From NCBI GenBank assembly GCA_013697245.1, contig JACCXH010000010.1, positions 1 through 64,000 on the forward strand: a DNA stretch of 64,000 nt. The letters run 5' to 3'. The position numbers and the translations under genes are program-made. Shown one piece after another: positions 1,939 through 18,567 of the stretch (positions within the stretch are counted from its first letter, which is position 1; the number at the start of each line of letters is the position of its first letter). Below the pieces are notes generated by a model. It was not told the DNA's origin, did no database searches, and worked only from the letters and a program-made list of their open reading frames with translations. This stretch comes from Bacteroidota bacterium. Lineage in GTDB: Bacteria; Bacteroidota; Bacteroidia; B-17B0; Aurantibacillaceae.

Positions 1939-2274
1939 ATGGCGTACAAGACAATGCAACATATTCTATATAAAGAGCAGGTAACCCTACTACCGAACAA
2001 GCCGTGGTTTTATGATCTTACGAAAACAATCGATAGCGACAAATTGCTTTACGAGATTGTCTATAACCTTGCTGATAAGCAAAAAGTTGTTAAAGCTGAG
2101 TTAAGTGGCGAAGGAGCAACCAAGATCATACTGATTGATTTTGACCTAAGCGAAGGTGTAAAATCGGGTCTCTTTATTTCAAATAAAACCTTCGCCAATA
2201 TTTTTTTTAAGGTGGAAAGCATCAAATTATTCTGTGATACTGAAATTACTTTTAAGTTAATTCTGTTTCACTAA
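1939..2274 (+). CDS. Hypothetical protein, 111 residues
   Basis: A small soluble protein that I do not recognise. It has no signal peptide, membrane segment or obvious motif. The predicted pattern is alternating beta-strand-like stretches (KIILIDFDLSEG, SGLFISNKTFANIFFKVES). It is the only plus-strand gene next to the integrative element, and its stop lies 13 nt before the left arm of the palindromic inverted repeat at 2288-2368. A plausible promoter precedes it. Whether it belongs to the element or to the flanking chromosome cannot be told. Confidence 0.6.
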   Translation: MAYKTMQHILYKEQVTLLPNKPWFYDLTKTIDSDKLLYEIVYNLADKQKVVKAELSGEGATKIILIDFDLSEGVKSGLFISNKTFANIFFKVESIKLFCDTEITFKLILFH

Positions 2275-2287
2275 TTATTATTCACTT

Positions 2288-2368
2288 AAAATTAATCGAT
2301 TAATTAATCGCTTAACACCCCATTTAATCGATTAATAACCGATTAATCGGATAATTAATCGATTAATT
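2288..2368. repeat. Left arm of an inverted repeat built of ATTAATCGATTAAT palindromes
   Basis: The arm contains the perfect palindromes ATTAATCGATTAAT (2291-2304), TTAATCGATTAA (2324-2335), CCGATTAATCGG (2339-2350) and ATTAATCGATTAAT (2354-2367). The whole arm aligns in reverse complement with 4183-4253 with the same order and spacing, except that this copy carries about 11 extra bases around 2322-2332. The two arms flank exactly one gene, the zinc-ribbon ATPase at 2463-4163. The possible roles are terminal repeats of a nested mobile unit, a replication or partition site, or operator arrays. Confidence 0.9.
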
Positions 2369-2414
2369 TCCCTGCTAATAGGGGATTGCAGCGTTTACCT
2401 CAGTTCAAGGCAAG

Positions 2415-2448
2415 AAAAAAGGGCGGTAACAACCACCCGCAATTTTTT
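2415..2448 (-). terminator. Terminator of the zinc-ribbon ATPase gene
   Basis: Read on the minus strand, the stem GGGTGGT/ACCGCCC (plus-strand 2421-2438) is followed by a run of six T. It lies just after the ATPase stop codon at 2463. A-rich and T-rich flanks on both sides would allow function in either direction. Confidence 0.7.
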
Positions 2449-2462
2449 ATGGAAATCTTATT

Positions 2463-4163
2463 TTAATCAATACTATCCAAGTCTTGCTGATGGTTGCCTT
2501 TGCCTCCATTACCATTTTTATTCCCAGTAAAGTCGGCAGTTTTAAAAGAAACACCCTTCGCTTTAAAACGGTTCTTAGTTGTTTCAGCGGTATAATCTTT
2601 AACGTTGACTACAATATCTACGAGATGCTTTTTTTCGTTTGCACCTAAAAGATCACCTTTTTTATTGTTTTGGTCGATACAAATAAAGGCGGTGTTTTTA
2701 TACCGTTCAAAAATCGCTTTTAATTTTTTAGAATCTATTTCCATGTCGTGCAGGCTGTCTAAAATGATAAAATTAAATTCATTTACGCCCACCTCTTTTA
2801 TTAATTCATCGCCTGTTCTAACATCCAATACATAAAAATCTTCTACCTCTGCCTTGCAATATTTTAACTTATCCTGAAAGGTTTTGTTTAAACCTTCCTC
2901 ACCGCTAACATAAAGTACCAAGCCAAAATTTTCAGCAAGATAACGGGCAAGCCACATACTAAAGGTTGATTTGCCTTCGCCAGAATTGCCGTGTATTAAA
3001 GCATGAAAGTTAATGGATGGGCAGCCGAAAAATTCTTTCCATAAGCCATCAAAACTAAAAGCCTTGTAATCTATTTTAGCCAGATCGGTGGCCGGTATAA
3101 TTTTATCGCTTTTAAATGTGGCTGGCTTTTTTGGCTTAGACCCTTTTTTTGAAGTGCCGTTTAAGTTATTTTCCGGCTTGATATTTTCAACCGCCCTGTT
3201 CAAGGCTTTTTCATAAGCCGGATTAATTACCTTTTGAACAAGGATCGTGTATTGAGTTGTTTTGGCTAATACTGTTCTTGTGTTATTAATGCCGTCCATA
3301 CAGTTCTGATAGTTTTGTTTGGCGGTAATTATTTTATTTTTTATCGCAGCGATTTGTACTAGCTTATCTTTTTCCCTGCTATCCTGAGTTAAAACCTGTG
3401 TGCCTTTTCCGATGGCTGCCCCAACAATTGCAAATTTAAACACATCCCACCAGACTGATTTTTGTTGTTTTTTTATTATTTTTTTTTGGTAGTCTTTCGC
3501 ATCCTTGTTAATTTCCGTATCATTGCTTTTAACCAAACCTATTAGCCCTCCAACACCTGCACCAAGTCCAATTAAGTCATTGCCATTGCGACCCGCCTGG
3601 AATTTTAGATCAGCCTCTAATTTCCTTAGTTCCTGCTCTAATTTTTGCTTGCCTTCTTGTTGTGATTTTAAGGTGCTTAGAATTAAATTGTAAAATGGAT
3701 TTTCTGTTTTAACCTCTTTATTGATATACTTTTCGGGCAAAATAGTCTTAACAGGATTGTCTTTTGTTTCTTTTGTCCCGATACCTTGTTCCTGATTATT
3801 ATCATTTTGGTTATCGCTTGACTGCTCCAATTTATTATCAACGTTAAAGACTGTTTCGTTAATTAACTCGTTAAAAAAAATTGAATCAATCGTTGGATTT
3901 TGATTTTTAAAATTAAAAAGGGGCTTATTACTTACCTGCTCATGTTTTTGTTCGGGTTCATTATCGATTACCCTCCTTAAAGATTTTTCCAGCGGGTTTT
4001 CTTTTTCGGGTTCTTGTTTAGTTTCTTTTATAATTCCTTTTAATTGCCCTACACGTTCTTTATAGCTGTATTTATTTTTACAATGTAAAGAGCAAAATCG
4101 TGCGCCATGTCTCTTATCAGACAATAAAGCGCCACACATTAAACAATACTTTTTCATGGTCAT
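2463..4163 (-). CDS. Zinc-ribbon protein with C-terminal RecA-like ATPase domain
   Basis: A 566-residue protein. Residues 7-28 carry a C-x2-C...C-x3-C zinc ribbon (C7, C10, C24, C28). Residues 40-150 are polar and low complexity. Residues 160-190 look like a coiled coil. Two glycine-rich hydrophobic stretches (about 196-212 and 238-256) could contact or enter a membrane. The C-terminal ~200 residues form a RecA/AAA_25-type ATPase with Walker A GNSGEGKST (392-400) and Walker B FIILDS (465-470). Such ATPases act as replicative helicase loaders or RepA-like helicases on mobile elements. No primase or nuclease motif is visible. The gene has its own terminator and is flanked by long inverted repeats, one in its promoter region. 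Replication or maintenance of the element is an inference. Confidence 0.75.
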   Translation of the reverse strand: MTMKKYCLMCGALLSDKRHGARFCSLHCKNKYSYKERVGQLKGIIKETKQEPEKENPLEKSLRRVIDNEPEQKHEQVSNKPLFNFKNQNPTIDSIFFNELINETVFNVDNKLEQSSDNQNDNNQEQGIGTKETKDNPVKTILPEKYINKEVKTENPFYNLILSTLKSQQEGKQKLEQELRKLEADLKFQAGRNGNDLIGLGAGVGGLIGLVKSNDTEINKDAKDYQKKIIKKQQKSVWWDVFKFAIVGAAIGKGTQVLTQDSREKDKLVQIAAIKNKIITAKQNYQNCMDGINNTRTVLAKTTQYTILVQKVINPAYEKALNRAVENIKPENNLNGTSKKGSKPKKPATFKSDKIIPATDLAKIDYKAFSFDGLWKEFFGCPSINFHALIHGNSGEGKSTFSMWLARYLAENFGLVLYVSGEEGLNKTFQDKLKYCKAEVEDFYVLDVRTGDELIKEVGVNEFNFIILDSLHDMEIDSKKLKAIFERYKNTAFICIDQNNKKGDLLGANEKKHLVDIVVNVKDYTAETTKNRFKAKGVSFKTADFTGNKNGNGGKGNHQQDLDSID

Positions 4164-4182
4164 TATTTTTAATCGTTTACTG

Positions 4183-4253
4183 AATTAATCGATTAATTAT
4201 CCGATTAATCGGTTATTGCGGGGTTTAATCGATTAATTAATCGATTAATTTTT
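4183..4253. repeat. Right arm of the palindromic inverted repeat
   Basis: The arm contains ATTAATCGATTAAT at 4184-4197, CCGATTAATCGG at 4201-4212, TTAATCGATTAA at 4225-4236 and ATTAATCGATTAAT at 4236-4249. Its reverse complement matches 2288-2368 over nearly its full length. It ends 20 nt upstream of the ATPase start codon (4163), so it covers the gene's probable promoter. A further half-site (TTTAATCG) lies at 4169-4176. Confidence 0.9.
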
Positions 4254-4262
4254 ACTTGCCTA

Positions 4263-4293
4263 AAAAGGGGCGGTGTTTCCGCCCCTAGTTTTT
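4263..4293 (-). terminator. Terminator of the small acidic gene
   Basis: The perfect 7-bp stem GGGGCGG/CCGCCCC (4267-4273 with 4279-4285) has a 5-nt loop and is followed on the minus strand by a T run. It starts 16 nt beyond the stop of the 76-residue gene. Confidence 0.75.
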
Positions 4294-4308: not shown

Positions 4309-4539
4309 TTACTTTTCGTCCTCGTCTTCTTCCTCTTCTTCGATGTTATCGATCAGTTCTTCAAGATACTCCTCAAGCTCATCTATGATAGCTGCCTCGT
4401 CTTTTTCATAATAGACCTCGATTTCGATTTCATCGTCTTCGTTTTTTCCTAAAACGCGGTTGTTTAAACCTGTTTCTGTTAACTTTTCTGTGAAGGCACC
4501 GAATACTTCGGTGGGTACTTCAAACTCTACTTTACGCAT
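4309..4539 (-). CDS. Small highly acidic protein, 76 residues
   Basis: The N-terminal ~35 residues are mixed (VEFEVPTEVFGAFTEKLTE). The C-terminal half is dominated by Asp and Glu and ends in a near-continuous acidic tail (EEEEEDEDEK). There is no signal peptide or known domain. It sits between the HTH gene and the ATPase gene of the integrative element, on the same strand, with its own terminator. The charge would fit a DNA-mimic or chaperone-like accessory protein, but that is only a guess. The gene is probably real because of its spacing and terminator. Confidence 0.65.
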   Translation of the reverse strand: MRKVEFEVPTEVFGAFTEKLTETGLNNRVLGKNEDDEIEIEVYYEKDEAAIIDELEEYLEELIDNIEEEEEDEDEK

Positions 4540-4565: not shown

Positions 4566-4919
4566 TTATTTATTTTTGCGGTTATTTTTGTTTTTTTTAG
4601 TTAATAGATAGCTAACCGCATTACCTTCTATTTCCTGTTTGGTTTTTACTTTTCCTGTTTTTATCCATTCTTCTAATTCGTTACGATTGAAATAAAGTTT
4701 ATTGCCCTTTTTAAAATGAGGGATTATTTTTTGCGAAGTTTTTTCGTACAGGGTGGTGATCTTTAATTTAAGAAAGGCGGCGGCCTCCTTAATATTTAGA
4801 ATATCAGGCAGAGACGATTTTAGCTTGGCTAAATCATCACCAATGATTTCTTTAATAGCGGATTTAAGGAACTCCTTAAATTCCTGTTCGCTTAGGCTGG
4901 TTAGAAATGATGCGCTCAT
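4566..4919 (-). CDS. Excisionase-like helix-turn-helix protein
   Basis: A 117-residue protein. Residues ~40-90 form a MerR/excisionase-type winged HTH (helix_turn_helix_17 family), seen as LNIKEAAAFLKLK, TTLYEKTSQ and the wing YFNRNELEEWIKTGK. The tail is basic. Proteins of this type bind DNA as excision or directionality factors, or as regulators of mobile elements. Its promoter region contains a 24-bp element at 4973-4996 that is also found at the same distance upstream of the integrase gene, which suggests co-regulation. DNA binding is well supported, the excisionase role is inferred from the neighbouring integrase. Confidence 0.8.
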   Translation of the reverse strand: MSASFLTSLSEQEFKEFLKSAIKEIIGDDLAKLKSSLPDILNIKEAAAFLKLKITTLYEKTSQKIIPHFKKGNKLYFNRNELEEWIKTGKVKTKQEIEGNAVSYLLTKKNKNNRKNK

Positions 4920-5008: not shown

Positions 5009-5863
5009 CTACTTTTTTCGGACGTGAGTTCCTATTAAGTCAGCTAATCGCATGATAGCGTCATGTAGCTCTTTATAATCTTCGTGTTTTACACCCGCTA
5101 TATCTCCTTTAGTGCCTAGCTGTTGCCTTAAAGTGTGTGAGCTGTATCCTGTAAGTATGTTAAATGCTTTTCCTGCATTTGTATAGGTGAGATCATCGCC
5201 TTTTAAAATAATTTTTGCTTCCTGCATGAACTGGATTAACAAGGCTGTTTGTGTCAGGTTTAATGAAGTTAATTTATCTCCTGCCTCCCGTTGCATTCTG
5301 CCTTTTATTTTTTCGGGCTTATCGTTTTCTGAAGTTTCAGTTATTTTTTCAGTGCTAACAATCCATTCTTTAATCGTATCAATTATTTTATGAGTTAATA
5401 ATTTTTCATCGTATTTGCGAACGGAAAGATTTAAAAACCTGATAAATTTTTGTTTATCGTTTTCAAAGCTATTTTCTAAATGGTAGGTTAAATAATTGTC
5501 CACTTCTAATAAATCGAGATGCCTAATTTTAATTATAAAAAAATAATCAAAAAAATCATCATTTACCTCGATATACTCTACGCCATAAATGTCGTACCAT
5601 GTCTTCACCATCTCATCTCCCTTTTGAACATTCGAGCTTTGCATAAAACGCCCTTGATGTTGTGAGAATACCTTTTCCAAAGTCATTCCTTCGCTGTAAC
5701 GGCTTAAAATATTTTCTTCTGTAAGATACTTTCTCTTGTGATTTAAAAATAAAAAAACCATCTGTTTGTAATCTCTAAATATCTCCTCATCAAGCCTTGA
5801 ATAAATAGATTCATGAGAAGTGAGTTGATTTAAAAGCAGGTCATATCGTTCGTTGTATTCCAT
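5009..5863 (-). CDS. Uncharacterised element protein, possibly RteC-like
   Basis: A 284-residue soluble protein without signal peptide or catalytic motif that I can see. It lies between the integrase and the excisionase-like gene. The C-terminal third has a helical pattern (LTQTALLIQFMQEAKIIL, then NAGKAFNILTGYS and LRQQLG) that vaguely recalls the C-terminal region of RteC, the excision regulator of Bacteroides conjugative transposons. The resemblance is by eye and weak. The position and orientation support a role in the element's regulation. The N-terminal 180 residues are not recognised. Confidence 0.7.
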   Translation of the reverse strand: MEYNERYDLLLNQLTSHESIYSRLDEEIFRDYKQMVFLFLNHKRKYLTEENILSRYSEGMTLEKVFSQHQGRFMQSSNVQKGDEMVKTWYDIYGVEYIEVNDDFFDYFFIIKIRHLDLLEVDNYLTYHLENSFENDKQKFIRFLNLSVRKYDEKLLTHKIIDTIKEWIVSTEKITETSENDKPEKIKGRMQREAGDKLTSLNLTQTALLIQFMQEAKIILKGDDLTYTNAGKAFNILTGYSSHTLRQQLGTKGDIAGVKHEDYKELHDAIMRLADLIGTHVRKK

Positions 5864-5957: not shown

Positions 5958-7154
5958 TTAAGCAGCCTTTTTAGGTTTTAATGGCTTGTCTTTAGTTTGC
6001 TTTTTTGCGGCTGGTTTAACTACAAAATTAAAATCAATTTTAGGTAGGGCTTTTACTGCCGCTATTTTTCGTTTATCTCTTACGTGAGCGTAAATTTGTG
6101 TTGCCATGATGTTCTTATGTCCTAATAATTTTGAAACCGTATAAAGGTCGCCGCTGTCGCTACTTTCTAACACATTTGTAGCGAAACTATGCCGCCCACT
6201 ATGAAAGTGCAATTTCTTTTGTTCAATTTTAGCCGCCTTTGCCCATCTTTTTAATCCTCTTTTAATTCTTTGATAAACTATTCGTGTTCCTTCAATTTCT
6301 TTTATGTCGGAAAACACATACACACTTTTTTCTTCTGATAGGGCTTCTTGTTTTCTTTCTTTTATTATATCAACTGCATTATCTGAAAGTGGTAAGTATT
6401 CGATACCTTCTGTTTTCTCCTGTTCAAAATAAAGCATATAGGTTTCTTTACCTTCAATTTCCTTTACAATAATTTCATCCCATCTTAAAGGGTTGACATC
6501 ACTCCATCGTAATCCCGTAAAGCATGAAAAGAAATAAGCCTGTCTAATTTGTTTGTTTATTTTGCAGGGGGTGTTTGCTAAATGTTGCAGTTCGCTAATA
6601 GAAAAAGAACTTCTAAATATATCCTGCTTTTTCATGCGTTGCTTATGTGGTACATCATGCCAAGGGTTGCTGGTCATAATCTTTTTCCGAATGGCATCAT
6701 TAAAGGCTCCATTTATAACGTGCAAATATCTTAGGGTGGTATTGTTACTTATATGACCTAACATATAACGCTCAAAATCTTTCATCCATTGAGCGCTTAA
6801 TTTTGAAAACGGCACAGGTTGTTTGCCAGTGAATTTTTTTAGTCGTGATAATACACCATAATATAATCCGTTGTAATTTCTTTCTTTGCAATACTGTTCA
6901 AAGAAGGTAACAAAGCAACCCAGTTTTTTCTTTTTATTCTGCAAGCCATTATCATCTATAATTAATTCATGTTCTCTTTTTGCTCTTATTTCCTGTGCTA
7001 ATCTCTTTTTTTCTTTATCATCACTACATGGCCGGTTTTTGTTAATATGAATTTCTAAAAATTCATACCACCTTCTTTTTGCATGGTAAATATCCAAGTA
7101 AAAGGATATTTGTCCACTTTTCAGTTGTTTTTCTCTCAATTTTACACTCATCAT
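5958..7154 (-). CDS. Tyrosine recombinase (site-specific integrase)
   Basis: A 398-residue integrase of the Bacteroidota mobile-element type. It has an N-terminal arm-binding domain (about 1-75), a SAM-like core-binding domain (about 75-170) and a C-terminal catalytic domain. The catalytic residues are visible: R216 in TGLRWSD, H318 and R321 in HSGRHSF, H346 in LLGHKN and the nucleophile Y355 in TQIYAHV. The length is typical and the set is complete, so it should be active. It transcribes toward the rest of the element. Upstream it has the 24-bp element shared with the excisionase-like gene, and GTAACA direct repeats that could be arm-type binding sites. The basic, lysine-rich tail is common in this family. 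Confidence 0.93.
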
Positions 7155-7529
7155 TTCTTGTTTTTAAGGTTAATAAATACCCCAATACAAAATTCTATAT
7201 ATAATAGTTATGCTATTGGGTTCATGAACTATCATGCAACCCTTTGAGTGTTTTGGAGTAACAAACAGGTAACAAAAATGTCAGAAAGTAACATAAATGC
7301 ACCTAAACAAGCCTAAATCAATATCCCTTAAAACCCTTATAGATTAAGGTTTTTTTAGCTTTTGTTCCGGTTTGTTTCAGGAATGAACTTTAAGGAATTT
7401 CTTTGAGGCTGGTTTGCGATGTGTGCTTATGCGGATTGGATTGCGGAAGCAAACGGAAAGTCTGCAGAATTAGAAAATAAATTTTATATACTAAGAAAGG
7501 ATTGTAAATCTTTAGGCGGCGTATTTCCC
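7155..7529. other. Gene-free region with candidate integrase arm sites and attachment core
   Basis: This 375-bp stretch has no convincing gene. It holds the integrase promoter region, three direct GTAACA repeats (7258, 7269, 7288) that could be arm-type integrase sites, and an interrupted inverted repeat AAAACCCTTA / TTAAGGTTTT around 7330-7356 that has the shape of a recombination core. I found no matching copy of this core on the left side of the element, so the attachment site is unproven. The remainder (7360-7529) shows nothing I recognise. Confidence 0.35.
7216..7239 (-). promoter_or_regulatory. Shared operator/promoter element, copy 2 (integrase)
   Basis: The second copy of the 24-bp element, containing the perfect palindrome GTTCATGAAC followed by TCATGCAA. 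It differs from copy 1 at three positions and lies 62 nt upstream of the integrase start codon. Confidence 0.6.
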
Positions 7530-13409: not shown

Positions 13410-13457
13410 TTAGGCCTTTACCGATTCTTCCATATAGGCTTCGATCGTTATACATGC
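13410..13457 (-). pseudogene. Orphan gcvP 3' end, copy 3
   Basis: The minus strand encodes ITIEAYMEESVKA and then a stop. The real GcvP ends PIEAYMEEAINA. The match is at protein level, with several silent or conservative changes, and fades upstream of the Ile. There is no gene attached. It is followed by its own hairpin. It probably marks an old insertion at the gcvP 3' end, where the incoming element supplied a replacement tail. Confidence 0.65.
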
Positions 13458-15705: not shown

Positions 15706-18567
15706 CTACGCATTAATTGCTTCCTCCATATAGGCTTCAATTGGCGCGCAAGAACAAACCAGATTACGGTCGCCATAAGCATTATCAACACGCGAAACGC
15801 TGGGCCAAAATTTATTTTCACGCACCCAATTAAGTGGAAACGCTGCTTTTTGGCGTGTATAAGGTTTTTTCCAATCATCGCTTACCACTAATCTACAAGT
15901 GTGGGGCGCATTTTTTATAACGTTATCGGCCTTGTCGTATTTACCTTCTTCTATTTCTTTAATTTCTTTTCTTATAGCAATCATGGCCTCACAAAAACGG
16001 TCCAGCTCGGCTTTGCCTTCGCTTTCGGTTGGTTCTACCATCAATGTATTTACTACAGGGAAGGCAACCGTTGGGGCATGAAAACCATAGTCCATTAAAC
16101 GCTTGGCCATATCTGCCACCTCAACACCTGTTGCCATTTTAAACTCATTGCAATCTAAAATCATCTCATGTGCGCAACGCCCGTTTTTACCGGTGTATAA
16201 AATTTTGTAATGGTCTTTTAAACATTCTTTAATGTAGTTGGCGTTTAGGATGGCCATTTCTGTAGCTTCTTTTACACCTTCATTACCCAGCATTTTTATG
16301 TAGCCATAAGAGATCAATAAAATCAATGCGCTACCATAAGGCGCTGCCGAAACTGCGGTAATACCTTTAGGTCCACTCGTGTTTACAATAGTGTGCGAAG
16401 GTAAAAACGGCACTAATTTTTCAACCACGCCAATTGGGCCCATGCCGGGACCACCACCACCGTGAGGGATAGCAAATGTTTTATGTAAATTTAAATGGCA
16501 AACATCTGCGCCAATATTACCCGGCGATGTTAAACCAACTTGTGCATTCATATTGGCACCATCCATATAAACCAAACCACCGTTATCGTGAATTAGTTTT
16601 GTAATATCCATAATAGATTCTTCGTACACACCATGTGTAGAGGGATACGTTACCATTAAACACGATAAATTATCTTTATGCTGTTCTGCTTTTTCTTTTA
16701 GATCTGCAATGTCAATATTTCCTTTGTCATCGCATTTGGTGATGATAATTTTCATACCTGCCATAGCTGCACTTGCAGGATTTGTACCATGAGCAGATGA
16801 AGGAATTAAAGCCACATTACGGTTTGGATGTCCGTTAGCGATATGGTACGCGCGAATAACCATTAAGCCTGCATACTCGCCTTGCGCGCCGGAGTTGGGC
16901 TGAAAGCTCATACGTGCAAAACCGGTAATTTCTGAAAGATCTTTATTTAATTGTTCGATCAATTCTGCATAACCCTGTGCCTGATCTACCGGCACAAATG
17001 GGTGAATGCTTGCAAACTCAGGCCAGGTAATTGGTAATAATTCTGAAGCTGCATTTAATTTCATAGTACACGATCCTAAAGAGATCATTGAGTGCACTAA
17101 AGAAAGATCTTTATTCTCTAAACGTTTAATGTAACGCATCATTTCACTTTCGCTGTGATATGAATTAAAAACAGGGTGCGATAAGAAATGAGAAGTACGG
17201 GCTAGTGCCGATGTGCTAATTGATTTTGAAGCAGGAATATTTTCGGCTAAAGTTTTAATTCCAAAACAAGATAAAATATCTACCAGGTCTTGTTGCTCAA
17301 CTGTTTGATCTAAGCTAATAGCAACATGTTTATCATCAACTTTTCTAAAATTAATTTCGCGGCTTACTGCTGCCGAAATAATTTTATCGGCATCGCATTC
17401 AATAACAATAGTATCAAAAAATAATTTGGTCTTTACAGTTAAGCGCGCTTTTTTTAATTCGTCGGCTACAAAATTGGTGGCCTTGTTTACACCTTCGGCA
17501 ATGGCTTTAATACCAGCCTGGCCGTGATACACCGCGTACATACTTGCCATAATAGCCAGTAGCGCTTGTGCTGTACAAATGTTTGAAGTTGCTTTATCGC
17601 GTTTAATATGTTGCTCGCGTGTTTGCAATGCCATGCGCAATGCCTGGTTACCTTCAGCATCAATTGATACACCAATGATGCGGCCCGGAATTAAACGTTT
17701 GTAATCTTCGCGACAGGTAAAAAATGCTGCATGCGGTCCACCATAACCTAATGGCACCCCAAAACGTTGTGAGTTACCAACTACACAATCGGCACCCCAC
17801 TCGCCCGGAGGCGTTAATAAAGCTAATGCTAAAAGATCGGTTGCAACGGCAATTTGTATATCTAACGCTTTGGCGTTTGCAGCAAATGTTTTGTAATCAC
17901 TAACCTCACCATTAATATCAGGATACTGAATTAATACACCAAAATAAGAATCGTCTAATTTAGTGGTGTTGGTATCGCCAATCACTAATTCGATGCCGTA
18001 AGGCACCGCACGTGTTTTTACAACATCAATGGTTTGAGGAAAAACTGTATTGCTTATGAAAAATTTATTGGCGTTATTTTTTACTTTGTCTTTACTGCGG
18101 TTACTGTAAAACATAAATAATGCTTCGGCAGCTGCGGTGGCTTCGTCTAACAAAGAGGCATTGGCAATTGGCATGGCGGTAAGATCCATAACCATGGTTT
18201 GAAAGTTTAAGATAGCTTCTAAACGGCCTTGCGCAATCTCTGCCTGGTAGGGCGTGTAAGCGGTGTACCAGCCCGGATTTTCTAAAACGTTACGTTGAAT
18301 AACAGCCGGTAAAACATTATTATAGTAGCCTAAACCAATATAAGAACGAAACACTTTATTTTTTTTACCAAGTGCTTTTAAATGTTTGGTATATTGAAAC
18401 TCGCTCATAGCATTAGCTATACGCAATGGTTGTTTTAAACGGATATTTGCCGGAACGGTTTGGTTTATTAGTTCATCAACAGATGAAACACCAATTTTTG
18501 CCAACATTTCTTTGATCTCGTTTTTGCGTGGCCCGTTGTGGCGGGAAGCGAATTTATCAGTAGTCAT
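15706..18567 (-). CDS. gcvP: Glycine dehydrogenase (decarboxylating), P-protein
   Basis: A 953-residue P-protein of the glycine cleavage system, the usual length of the single-chain form. It decarboxylates glycine with pyridoxal phosphate and passes the aminomethyl group to the lipoyl H-protein. The PLP lysine is K696 in HLNLHKTF, followed by the glycine-rich PHGGGGPGMG loop. The C-terminus ends CAPIEAYMEEAINA. Two degraded copies of this end lie downstream at 14127 and 13410. gcvT lies at 24157, not adjacent, and gcvH is not in the window. Confidence 0.97.
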   Translation of the reverse strand: MTTDKFASRHNGPRKNEIKEMLAKIGVSSVDELINQTVPANIRLKQPLRIANAMSEFQYTKHLKALGKKNKVFRSYIGLGYYNNVLPAVIQRNVLENPGWYTAYTPYQAEIAQGRLEAILNFQTMVMDLTAMPIANASLLDEATAAAEALFMFYSNRSKDKVKNNANKFFISNTVFPQTIDVVKTRAVPYGIELVIGDTNTTKLDDSYFGVLIQYPDINGEVSDYKTFAANAKALDIQIAVATDLLALALLTPPGEWGADCVVGNSQRFGVPLGYGGPHAAFFTCREDYKRLIPGRIIGVSIDAEGNQALRMALQTREQHIKRDKATSNICTAQALLAIMASMYAVYHGQAGIKAIAEGVNKATNFVADELKKARLTVKTKLFFDTIVIECDADKIISAAVSREINFRKVDDKHVAISLDQTVEQQDLVDILSCFGIKTLAENIPASKSISTSALARTSHFLSHPVFNSYHSESEMMRYIKRLENKDLSLVHSMISLGSCTMKLNAASELLPITWPEFASIHPFVPVDQAQGYAELIEQLNKDLSEITGFARMSFQPNSGAQGEYAGLMVIRAYHIANGHPNRNVALIPSSAHGTNPASAAMAGMKIIITKCDDKGNIDIADLKEKAEQHKDNLSCLMVTYPSTHGVYEESIMDITKLIHDNGGLVYMDGANMNAQVGLTSPGNIGADVCHLNLHKTFAIPHGGGGPGMGPIGVVEKLVPFLPSHTIVNTSGPKGITAVSAAPYGSALILLISYGYIKMLGNEGVKEATEMAILNANYIKECLKDHYKILYTGKNGRCAHEMILDCNEFKMATGVEVADMAKRLMDYGFHAPTVAFPVVNTLMVEPTESEGKAELDRFCEAMIAIRKEIKEIEEGKYDKADNVIKNAPHTCRLVVSDDWKKPYTRQKAAFPLNWVRENKFWPSVSRVDNAYGDRNLVCSCAPIEAYMEEAINA

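Follow-up and report, generated by a model that had tools for sequence, protein, structure and literature searches.

Introduction

SaPI Rep initiator helicases bind their own iterons, which lie directly beside rep, and PICI origins contain two sets of iterons (PMC7581432, PMC6092414). In the PICMI satellites int, alpA, and prim were shown to be necessary, and PF12728 is part of the PICMI model (PMC10803314).

The window analyzed here, a 64,000-nucleotide stretch of Bacteroidota DNA, carries an integrative element (called W) that resembles SaPI/PICI Rep-ori (and SCCmec Cch2) in that an element-specific array of short repeats adjoins its ATPase gene. Two sister elements, L006 and L007, are present in the same 4.44-Mb genome and the other relatives were drawn from Bacteroidia genomes. 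We found no published description of this element family in a literature search outside of subscription journals and preprints. We put at about 0.5 the probability that the palindromic arms of W are iteron-like arrays and that its zinc-finger/RadA-like ATPase is the origin-binding initiator of the element.

Palindrome arrays flank the ATPase gene

Array 2, the downstream arm (2288-2368), contains three copies of TTAATCGATTAA (starting at 2292, 2324, and 2355) and one of CCGATTAATCGG (2339), plus an extra TTAATCGCTTAA (2304) in this left arm. Array 1, the upstream arm (4183-4252), contains three copies of TTAATCGATTAA (4185, 4225, and 4237) and one of CCGATTAATCGG (4201) and lies between the terminator of the acidic protein gene and the ATPase start. 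The arms match in two blocks, one of 35 nt with 100% complementarity (2334-2368 with 4183-4217) and one of 49 nt with 84% complementarity (2288-2336 with 4204-4252), which gave E=1.8e-16 in a blastn comparison within the window. The 14-mer ATTAATCGATTAAT occurs four times. The initial annotation described inverted palindromic arms that enclose only the ATPase gene and its terminator, and the coordinates, the blastn comparison, and the genome counts bear this out: the ATPase ORF and its terminator are all that lies between the arms.

In the 4.44-Mb genome TTAATCGATTAA was seen 19 times versus about 1.7 expected, and 18 of the 19 sit in arms, six in each of the three element copies. Hence, the arms are far above chance and the palindromes do not occur throughout the genome independently of the ATPase gene. 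The lone remaining copy (C33:59749) has no ATPase match and is thus taken as background.

The two other ATPase genes of the genome, on contigs C17 and C30, are 88% and 81% identical to that of W, and each lies between the same arrays, which hold three TTAATCGATTAA copies apiece. The three copies occupy three loci that have the element ends in common and different surroundings. W and L006 are alike from the acidic protein gene to the right end, but their integrase halves are unrelated, so modules have been swapped. In a comparison of these two copies, 0 of the 108 palindrome positions in the two arrays differ, against a divergence of 10.4% for the ATPase gene, 17.7% for the remaining non-coding sequence, and 24.2% for the gene of the acidic protein. 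The downstream array of L007 has undergone rearrangement and no longer matches the upstream array as an inverted repeat, yet its three sites are kept, so it is the sites that are conserved and not the inverted-repeat geometry. Hence, the earlier description of the arms as inverted copies holds for W but not as a conserved arrangement; the inverted appearance comes from the palindromic nature of the sites and from duplication of part of the array.

Positions 3-126 of the window are identical to positions 1-124 of L007, and this 124-bp sequence opens contigs C23 and C30. It is a genomic repeat, probably a mobile element, that interrupted the assembly.

Layout of the integrative element

W extends from about 1858 to about 7400 (approximate ends; about 5.5-6 kb). 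The right end was placed where similarity to L006 breaks off sharply at 1858, and the left end was set by analogy to L040 and L116, in which about 250 bp separate the integrase gene from the ORF6N attachment core upstream of it. GTTACC/GTTACT repeats upstream of the W integrase gene (7250-7280) are likely integrase arm-type sites, a role that we infer. The genes then follow on the minus strand: a tyrosine integrase having arm-binding, SAM-like, and catalytic domains (5958-7154; PF00589 7.5e-26, PF13102, PF17293); F5, a 284-residue core protein with homologues in eight other elements and no Pfam family above cutoff (5009-5863); an HTH_17 excisionase/AlpA-like DNA-binding protein (4566-4919; PF12728 E=6.3e-13, TIGR01764); and a small acidic protein of 76 residues (4309-4539), which is found family-wide directly upstream of the ATPase. 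A terminator-like hairpin in the gap between the acidic protein gene and array 1 (4266-4286) has the same order in relatives. The ATPase gene (2463-4163, minus strand, with the ATG at 4163 or 4157) encodes a zinc finger, a coiled coil, and a RadA/RecA-like ATPase and is followed by a terminator-like hairpin of its own (2421-2438, minus strand). Convergent with it is an ORF of 111 residues (1939-2274, plus strand) that is present in L006 as 106 residues, is absent from L007, and gave no matches in Pfam, NCBIfam, or PHROG.

The acidic protein and its relatives, which occur in nearly all of the elements, are very acidic with a Glu/Asp-rich tail; such a protein might control the zinc finger by mimicking DNA. 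Elsewhere in the window an imperfect direct repeat of about 21 bp (13424-13445 and 15720-15741; 19 of 21 positions identical) duplicates the 3' end of gcvP. The pair bounds a 2.3-kb stretch that encodes a 180-residue protein and a TPR protein and resembles an old insertion at the gcvP end.

Similar GTTACCC repeats, which most of the elements share, are also found upstream of the integrase genes of L040, L046, L047, L048, L051, L111, and L116. The integrase ends of L040, L044, and L116 lie inside an ORF6N gene at a palindromic core that is TTGAGGTCACAAAWTGTGACCTCAA or nearly so; a core resembling it occurs in L048, and the start of L050 adjoins a truncated ORF6N gene. The ORF6N genes interrupted at the integrase end or close to it are at 14683-14922 in L040, 12340-12704 in L044, 4220-4483 in L050, and 3994-4389 in L116, and in three of these elements the cut is at a palindromic TTGAGGTCACA..TGTGACCTCAA core, which is likely a recurrent attachment site. 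The C-terminal half of ORF6N was not found at the far ends of L040, L044, or L050. Neither an attR nor an empty site could be found, nor could long direct repeats at the element ends.

The ATPase is a RadA-like protein with an N-terminal zinc finger

Cysteines C7, C10, C24, and C28, the Walker A motif, and KNRF are invariant in alignment A1, with the final G of KNRFG lost in the clade of the window. A RadA profile was the best match in the PDB profile search (1.4e-9) and RadA (8rxc) was the top Foldseek match of the AlphaFold2 model, but the score against the NCBIfam RadA model was 26.6 bits versus a cutoff of 403. The protein ends about 33 residues past KNRF and the Lon-like C-terminal domain is absent. 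AAA_24 matches were obtained for 10 of 14 members. Confidence in the AlphaFold2 model is high only in the RecA core and the coiled-coil arm and is moderate in the zinc finger, in which a helix (residues 26-43) follows the last cysteine pair. The zinc-finger domain (about residues 1-45; 4029-4163, minus strand) is the predicted array reader, as judged from the covariation given below (partial Mantel tests) and the AlphaFold2 model.

The initial annotation also noted possible membrane-facing segments. A glycine-zipper hairpin is indeed present in the clade of the window and in some relatives; others have a non-hydrophobic tip instead and hence the hairpin is not essential. Together with the coiled-coil arm and the paired arrays to either side of the gene, the hairpin speaks for partition or copy control, in which the arrays would be centromere-like and the ATPase, through its coiled coil and the possible membrane hairpin of this clade, would tether, pair, or segregate excised copies. 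We consider such a role unlikely given that the core is RadA/RecA with a KNRF motif rather than ParA or ParM, that many relatives lack the hydrophobic hairpin, and that partition is rarely needed by an integrated element.

Related elements in Bacteroidia

The core gene order of the family is tyrosine integrase, a protein of about 280 residues, one or two HTH_17 proteins, an acidic protein of about 80 residues, terminator, array, and zinc-finger ATPase. The position of the 280-residue protein is filled by F5 or, in L006, L007, and L039, by an unrelated protein of 270 residues. In L046 and L051 the ATPase gene is followed by restriction-modification genes, and in L043 such genes are its neighbors. 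L114 pairs its zinc-finger ATPase with a separate Toprim/AAA_25 (helicase-primase-like) protein.

The array words are element-specific and most are CG-centered (TTAATCGATTAA, TTAAGCGCTTAA, AGACGTCT, ACACGTGT, and AAACGTTT among others). The word is TTAATCGATTAA in W, L006, L007, and L041, TTAAGCGCTTAA in L040, TTAAGYRCTTAA in L039, AGACGTCT in L042 and L111, TGACGTCA in L045 and L046, AAACGTTT in L047 and L113, GTACAGTAC in L109, and TTACCGTAA in L114, with words of the ACACGT or ACGCGT types in L043, L044, L048, L050, L108, and L116. Arrays of different words adjoin zinc-finger ATPase genes in other Bacteroidia genera, and the zinc-finger homologues do carry arrays, although weakly in a few. 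Palindrome coverage upstream of the ATPase gene was clearly greater than in shuffled sequences for the W clade, L047, and L109, marginal for L046, L048, L111, and L116, and not significant for L043, L044, L045, L050, L051, and L108, most of which have repeated half-sites. In genome G043 five of six TTAATCGATTAA copies and in genome G065 all three TTAAGCGCTTAA copies are in the element; the relatives searched that lack these elements have 0-2 copies of either word.

The placement of the arrays bears on the suggestion, made in the initial annotation, that the arms could delimit a nested mobile unit. The inverted geometry of W, L006, and partly L040 is what would suit a transposon- or MITE-like unit having the arms as terminal inverted repeats. 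However, the position and orientation of the arrays vary among the relatives. The second array starts 97 bp after the ATPase stop codon in W, L006, and L007, 252 bp after it in L040, and about 930 bp after it in L039, in which two small ORFs are enclosed. The array order of L007 is rearranged, the arrays are spaced 1.8-2.7 kb apart and in L039 enclose extra ORFs, the second array of L041 is on the other side, and L113 has a single array, downstream of the ATPase gene. Such a unit is absent elsewhere in the genome, outside of the element, and the enclosed ORF belongs to no transposase family. We therefore reject a nested transposon and give this reading almost no credence.

Another of the earlier suggestions, an autoregulated operator pair, may hold for the upstream array, which fills the gap from the terminator to the ATPase start where the promoter of that gene must lie. 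The palindromes would then simply be operators for the ATPase or another gene of the element. Array 2 of W and L006, however, is located where two convergent genes face each other with their 3' ends and hence operators are not the whole story; moreover, the array of L113 is only downstream of the ATPase gene, and L041 has two further arrays 1.35-1.55 kb upstream of its ATPase gene, directly after the integrase gene. Pure autoregulation thus seems very unlikely.

Full-length relatives of the ATPase were absent from viral contigs (IMG/VR) and phage records, and a genome-contig scan returned only the same three relatives. In a phylum-wide draw of 395 genomes only the genome of the window passed E<=1e-60, so the full-length family is rare outside of certain Bacteroidia lineages. 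Among more distant homologues, L117, L118, L119, and L120 encode RadA-like ATPases that lack the zinc finger and lie in phage-like regions, with adenine-methylase-like or amidase-like genes beside some and very long ORFs beside most; these are a different mobile-element family. In L043 and L108, from two species of one genus, an F5-acidic protein-ATPase module lies near dnaN with no integrase gene and is possibly a domesticated or decayed element.

The zinc finger covaries with the array

For 19 elements we compared the similarity of array content with the similarity of each protein by partial Mantel tests, in which the zinc finger was taken as the first 45 residues of the ATPase. Zinc-finger similarity correlated with array similarity with r values from 0.59 (half-site profiles) to 0.78 (repeated words) in these 19 related elements, whose word classes were first seen by eye, before the automatic tests. 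When the ATPase core was accounted for, the partial r of the zinc finger was 0.50-0.65 (p<=3e-4, with shared ancestry uncorrected); that of the core given the zinc finger was -0.05 to 0.14. Upon removal of near-duplicates the zinc finger retained partial r values of 0.44-0.59 given the core and the HTH signal was gone. F5 and the integrase had small, borderline residual correlations with the array in some settings.

The clearest single case for the link is L041. Compared with the other W-clade ATPases its whole ATPase has scores of 0.30-0.33 throughout, and its zinc finger scores 0.57-0.59 against those of W, L006, and L007 versus 0.42 and 0.37 against those of L039 and L040. The L041 array word is TTAATCGATTAA, the word of W, L006, and L007, which have the nearest zinc fingers. 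The HTH proteins have similarities of 0.76 (W and L040) and 0.87 (L044 and L046), yet the array words differ. The discordant gene histories and the partial Mantel tests disfavor the HTH_17 protein, the integrase, F5, and the acidic protein as array readers. The element core, the element-specific arrays beside the ATPase gene, and the covariation of array word and zinc finger are well supported, and these sequence comparisons suggest that the RadA-like ATPase reads the arrays of its own element through the N-terminal zinc finger.

An array-bound ATPase might instead be an accessory to excision or recombination, helping the integrase to synapse the element ends or repairing the excised circle in the manner of a RadA/Sak4 mediator. 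RadA is the closest fold and profile, AAA_24 was matched by most members, the downstream array is near one element end in W, L006, and L007, and arrays adjoin the integrase gene in L041. We nevertheless think this role quite unlikely: W and L006 have the identical array word and unrelated integrases, the tracking of array by integrase is weak once zinc-finger similarity is accounted for, and the likely integrase arm sites (GTTACCC) are separate from the palindrome arrays.

A model for the array and the ATPase

Of the options raised by the initial annotation, the comparative data favor a replication or partition locus whose ATPase would act on iterons, because the arrays accompany the zinc-finger ATPase, are element-specific, and covary with the zinc finger. 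An origin-binding initiator is the most economical model. In this model the zinc fingers would dock on the mostly CpG-centered palindromes and several ATPase copies would assemble on an array. The RecA-type motor would then open or remodel the DNA such that the putative excised circle is replicated, and ATPase bound at the upstream array would feed back on its own promoter. Physical binding of the ATPase to the arrays and autoregulation through the upstream array are predicted from the sequences, and replication initiation is the outcome expected by analogy with the SaPI/PICI and SCC Rep-iteron systems. Two points count against an initiator: to our knowledge RadA-like proteins are recombination helicases and not origin initiators, and most of the elements have no recognizable primase of their own. 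Given its separate helicase-primase-like protein, the zinc-finger ATPase of L114 would not be the sole replication motor.

More tentatively, and at somewhat less than even odds, these elements may be an undescribed class of self-specified Bacteroidota replicons, in which the zinc finger of a RadA-like motor reads an element-specific CpG-centered array. The residues after the fourth cysteine would be the recognition code and element identities would be kept apart in the manner of incompatibility groups. The code proposed would have CKNK read TTAATCG, CQN[KR] read TTAAG, CRWN read ACACG, and CKAxxW read GACG.

If these proposals are true, a RadA-family motor was turned into a site-specific initiator by an added zinc finger, with specificity that changes with the DNA array, which would be a new initiator superfamily for Bacteroidota integrative elements. 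There would also be a readable zinc-finger/palindrome code to exploit, and ATPase plus array would be a marker for finding defense-carrying islands. Such islands may escape the current satellite, IME, and ICE finders because they lack a primase or relaxase.

Comparison with known systems

Bacteroides NBU/IME elements presumably have similar integrase arm-binding and SAM-like domains and HTH_17 proteins. They differ in that a relaxase or mobilization gene is not recognized in W, the ORFs of which gave no relaxase-family matches when tested as an integrative mobilizable element. The tyrosine integrase and AlpA/Xis-like HTH protein of W (PF00589, PF12728) are features of PICIs and phage satellites, whereas family profile searches of the W ORFs found no primase or SaPI/D5-type Rep.

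PICMI satellites are similar in having a minimal set of int, an AlpA-type HTH gene, and a replication gene, followed by restriction-modification cargo, and the order integrase, HTH/AlpA, ATPase and array, defense cargo resembles that of PICI and PICMI elements (PMC10803314). The present elements differ in the absence of a DUF3987/DUF5906 primase and in belonging to another phylum, and they have no known helper phage.

The ATPase resembles RadA/Sms in its N-terminal four-cysteine zinc finger, Walker A motif, RecA core, KNRF motif, and best PDB match, but falls below the RadA cutoff, lacks the Lon-like C-terminal domain, and has an extra coiled-coil insert and a zinc finger that tracks specific palindromes. 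SaPI-type Rep and D5-type helicases have a C-terminal DNA-binding domain, whereas here a RadA/RecA-like protein has an N-terminal zinc finger, and in place of the short AT-rich core between the iterons of SaPI/PICI origins two arrays flank the gene. By analogy, the initiator proposed here would work on iterons as does SaPI Rep, but would belong to another protein superfamily.
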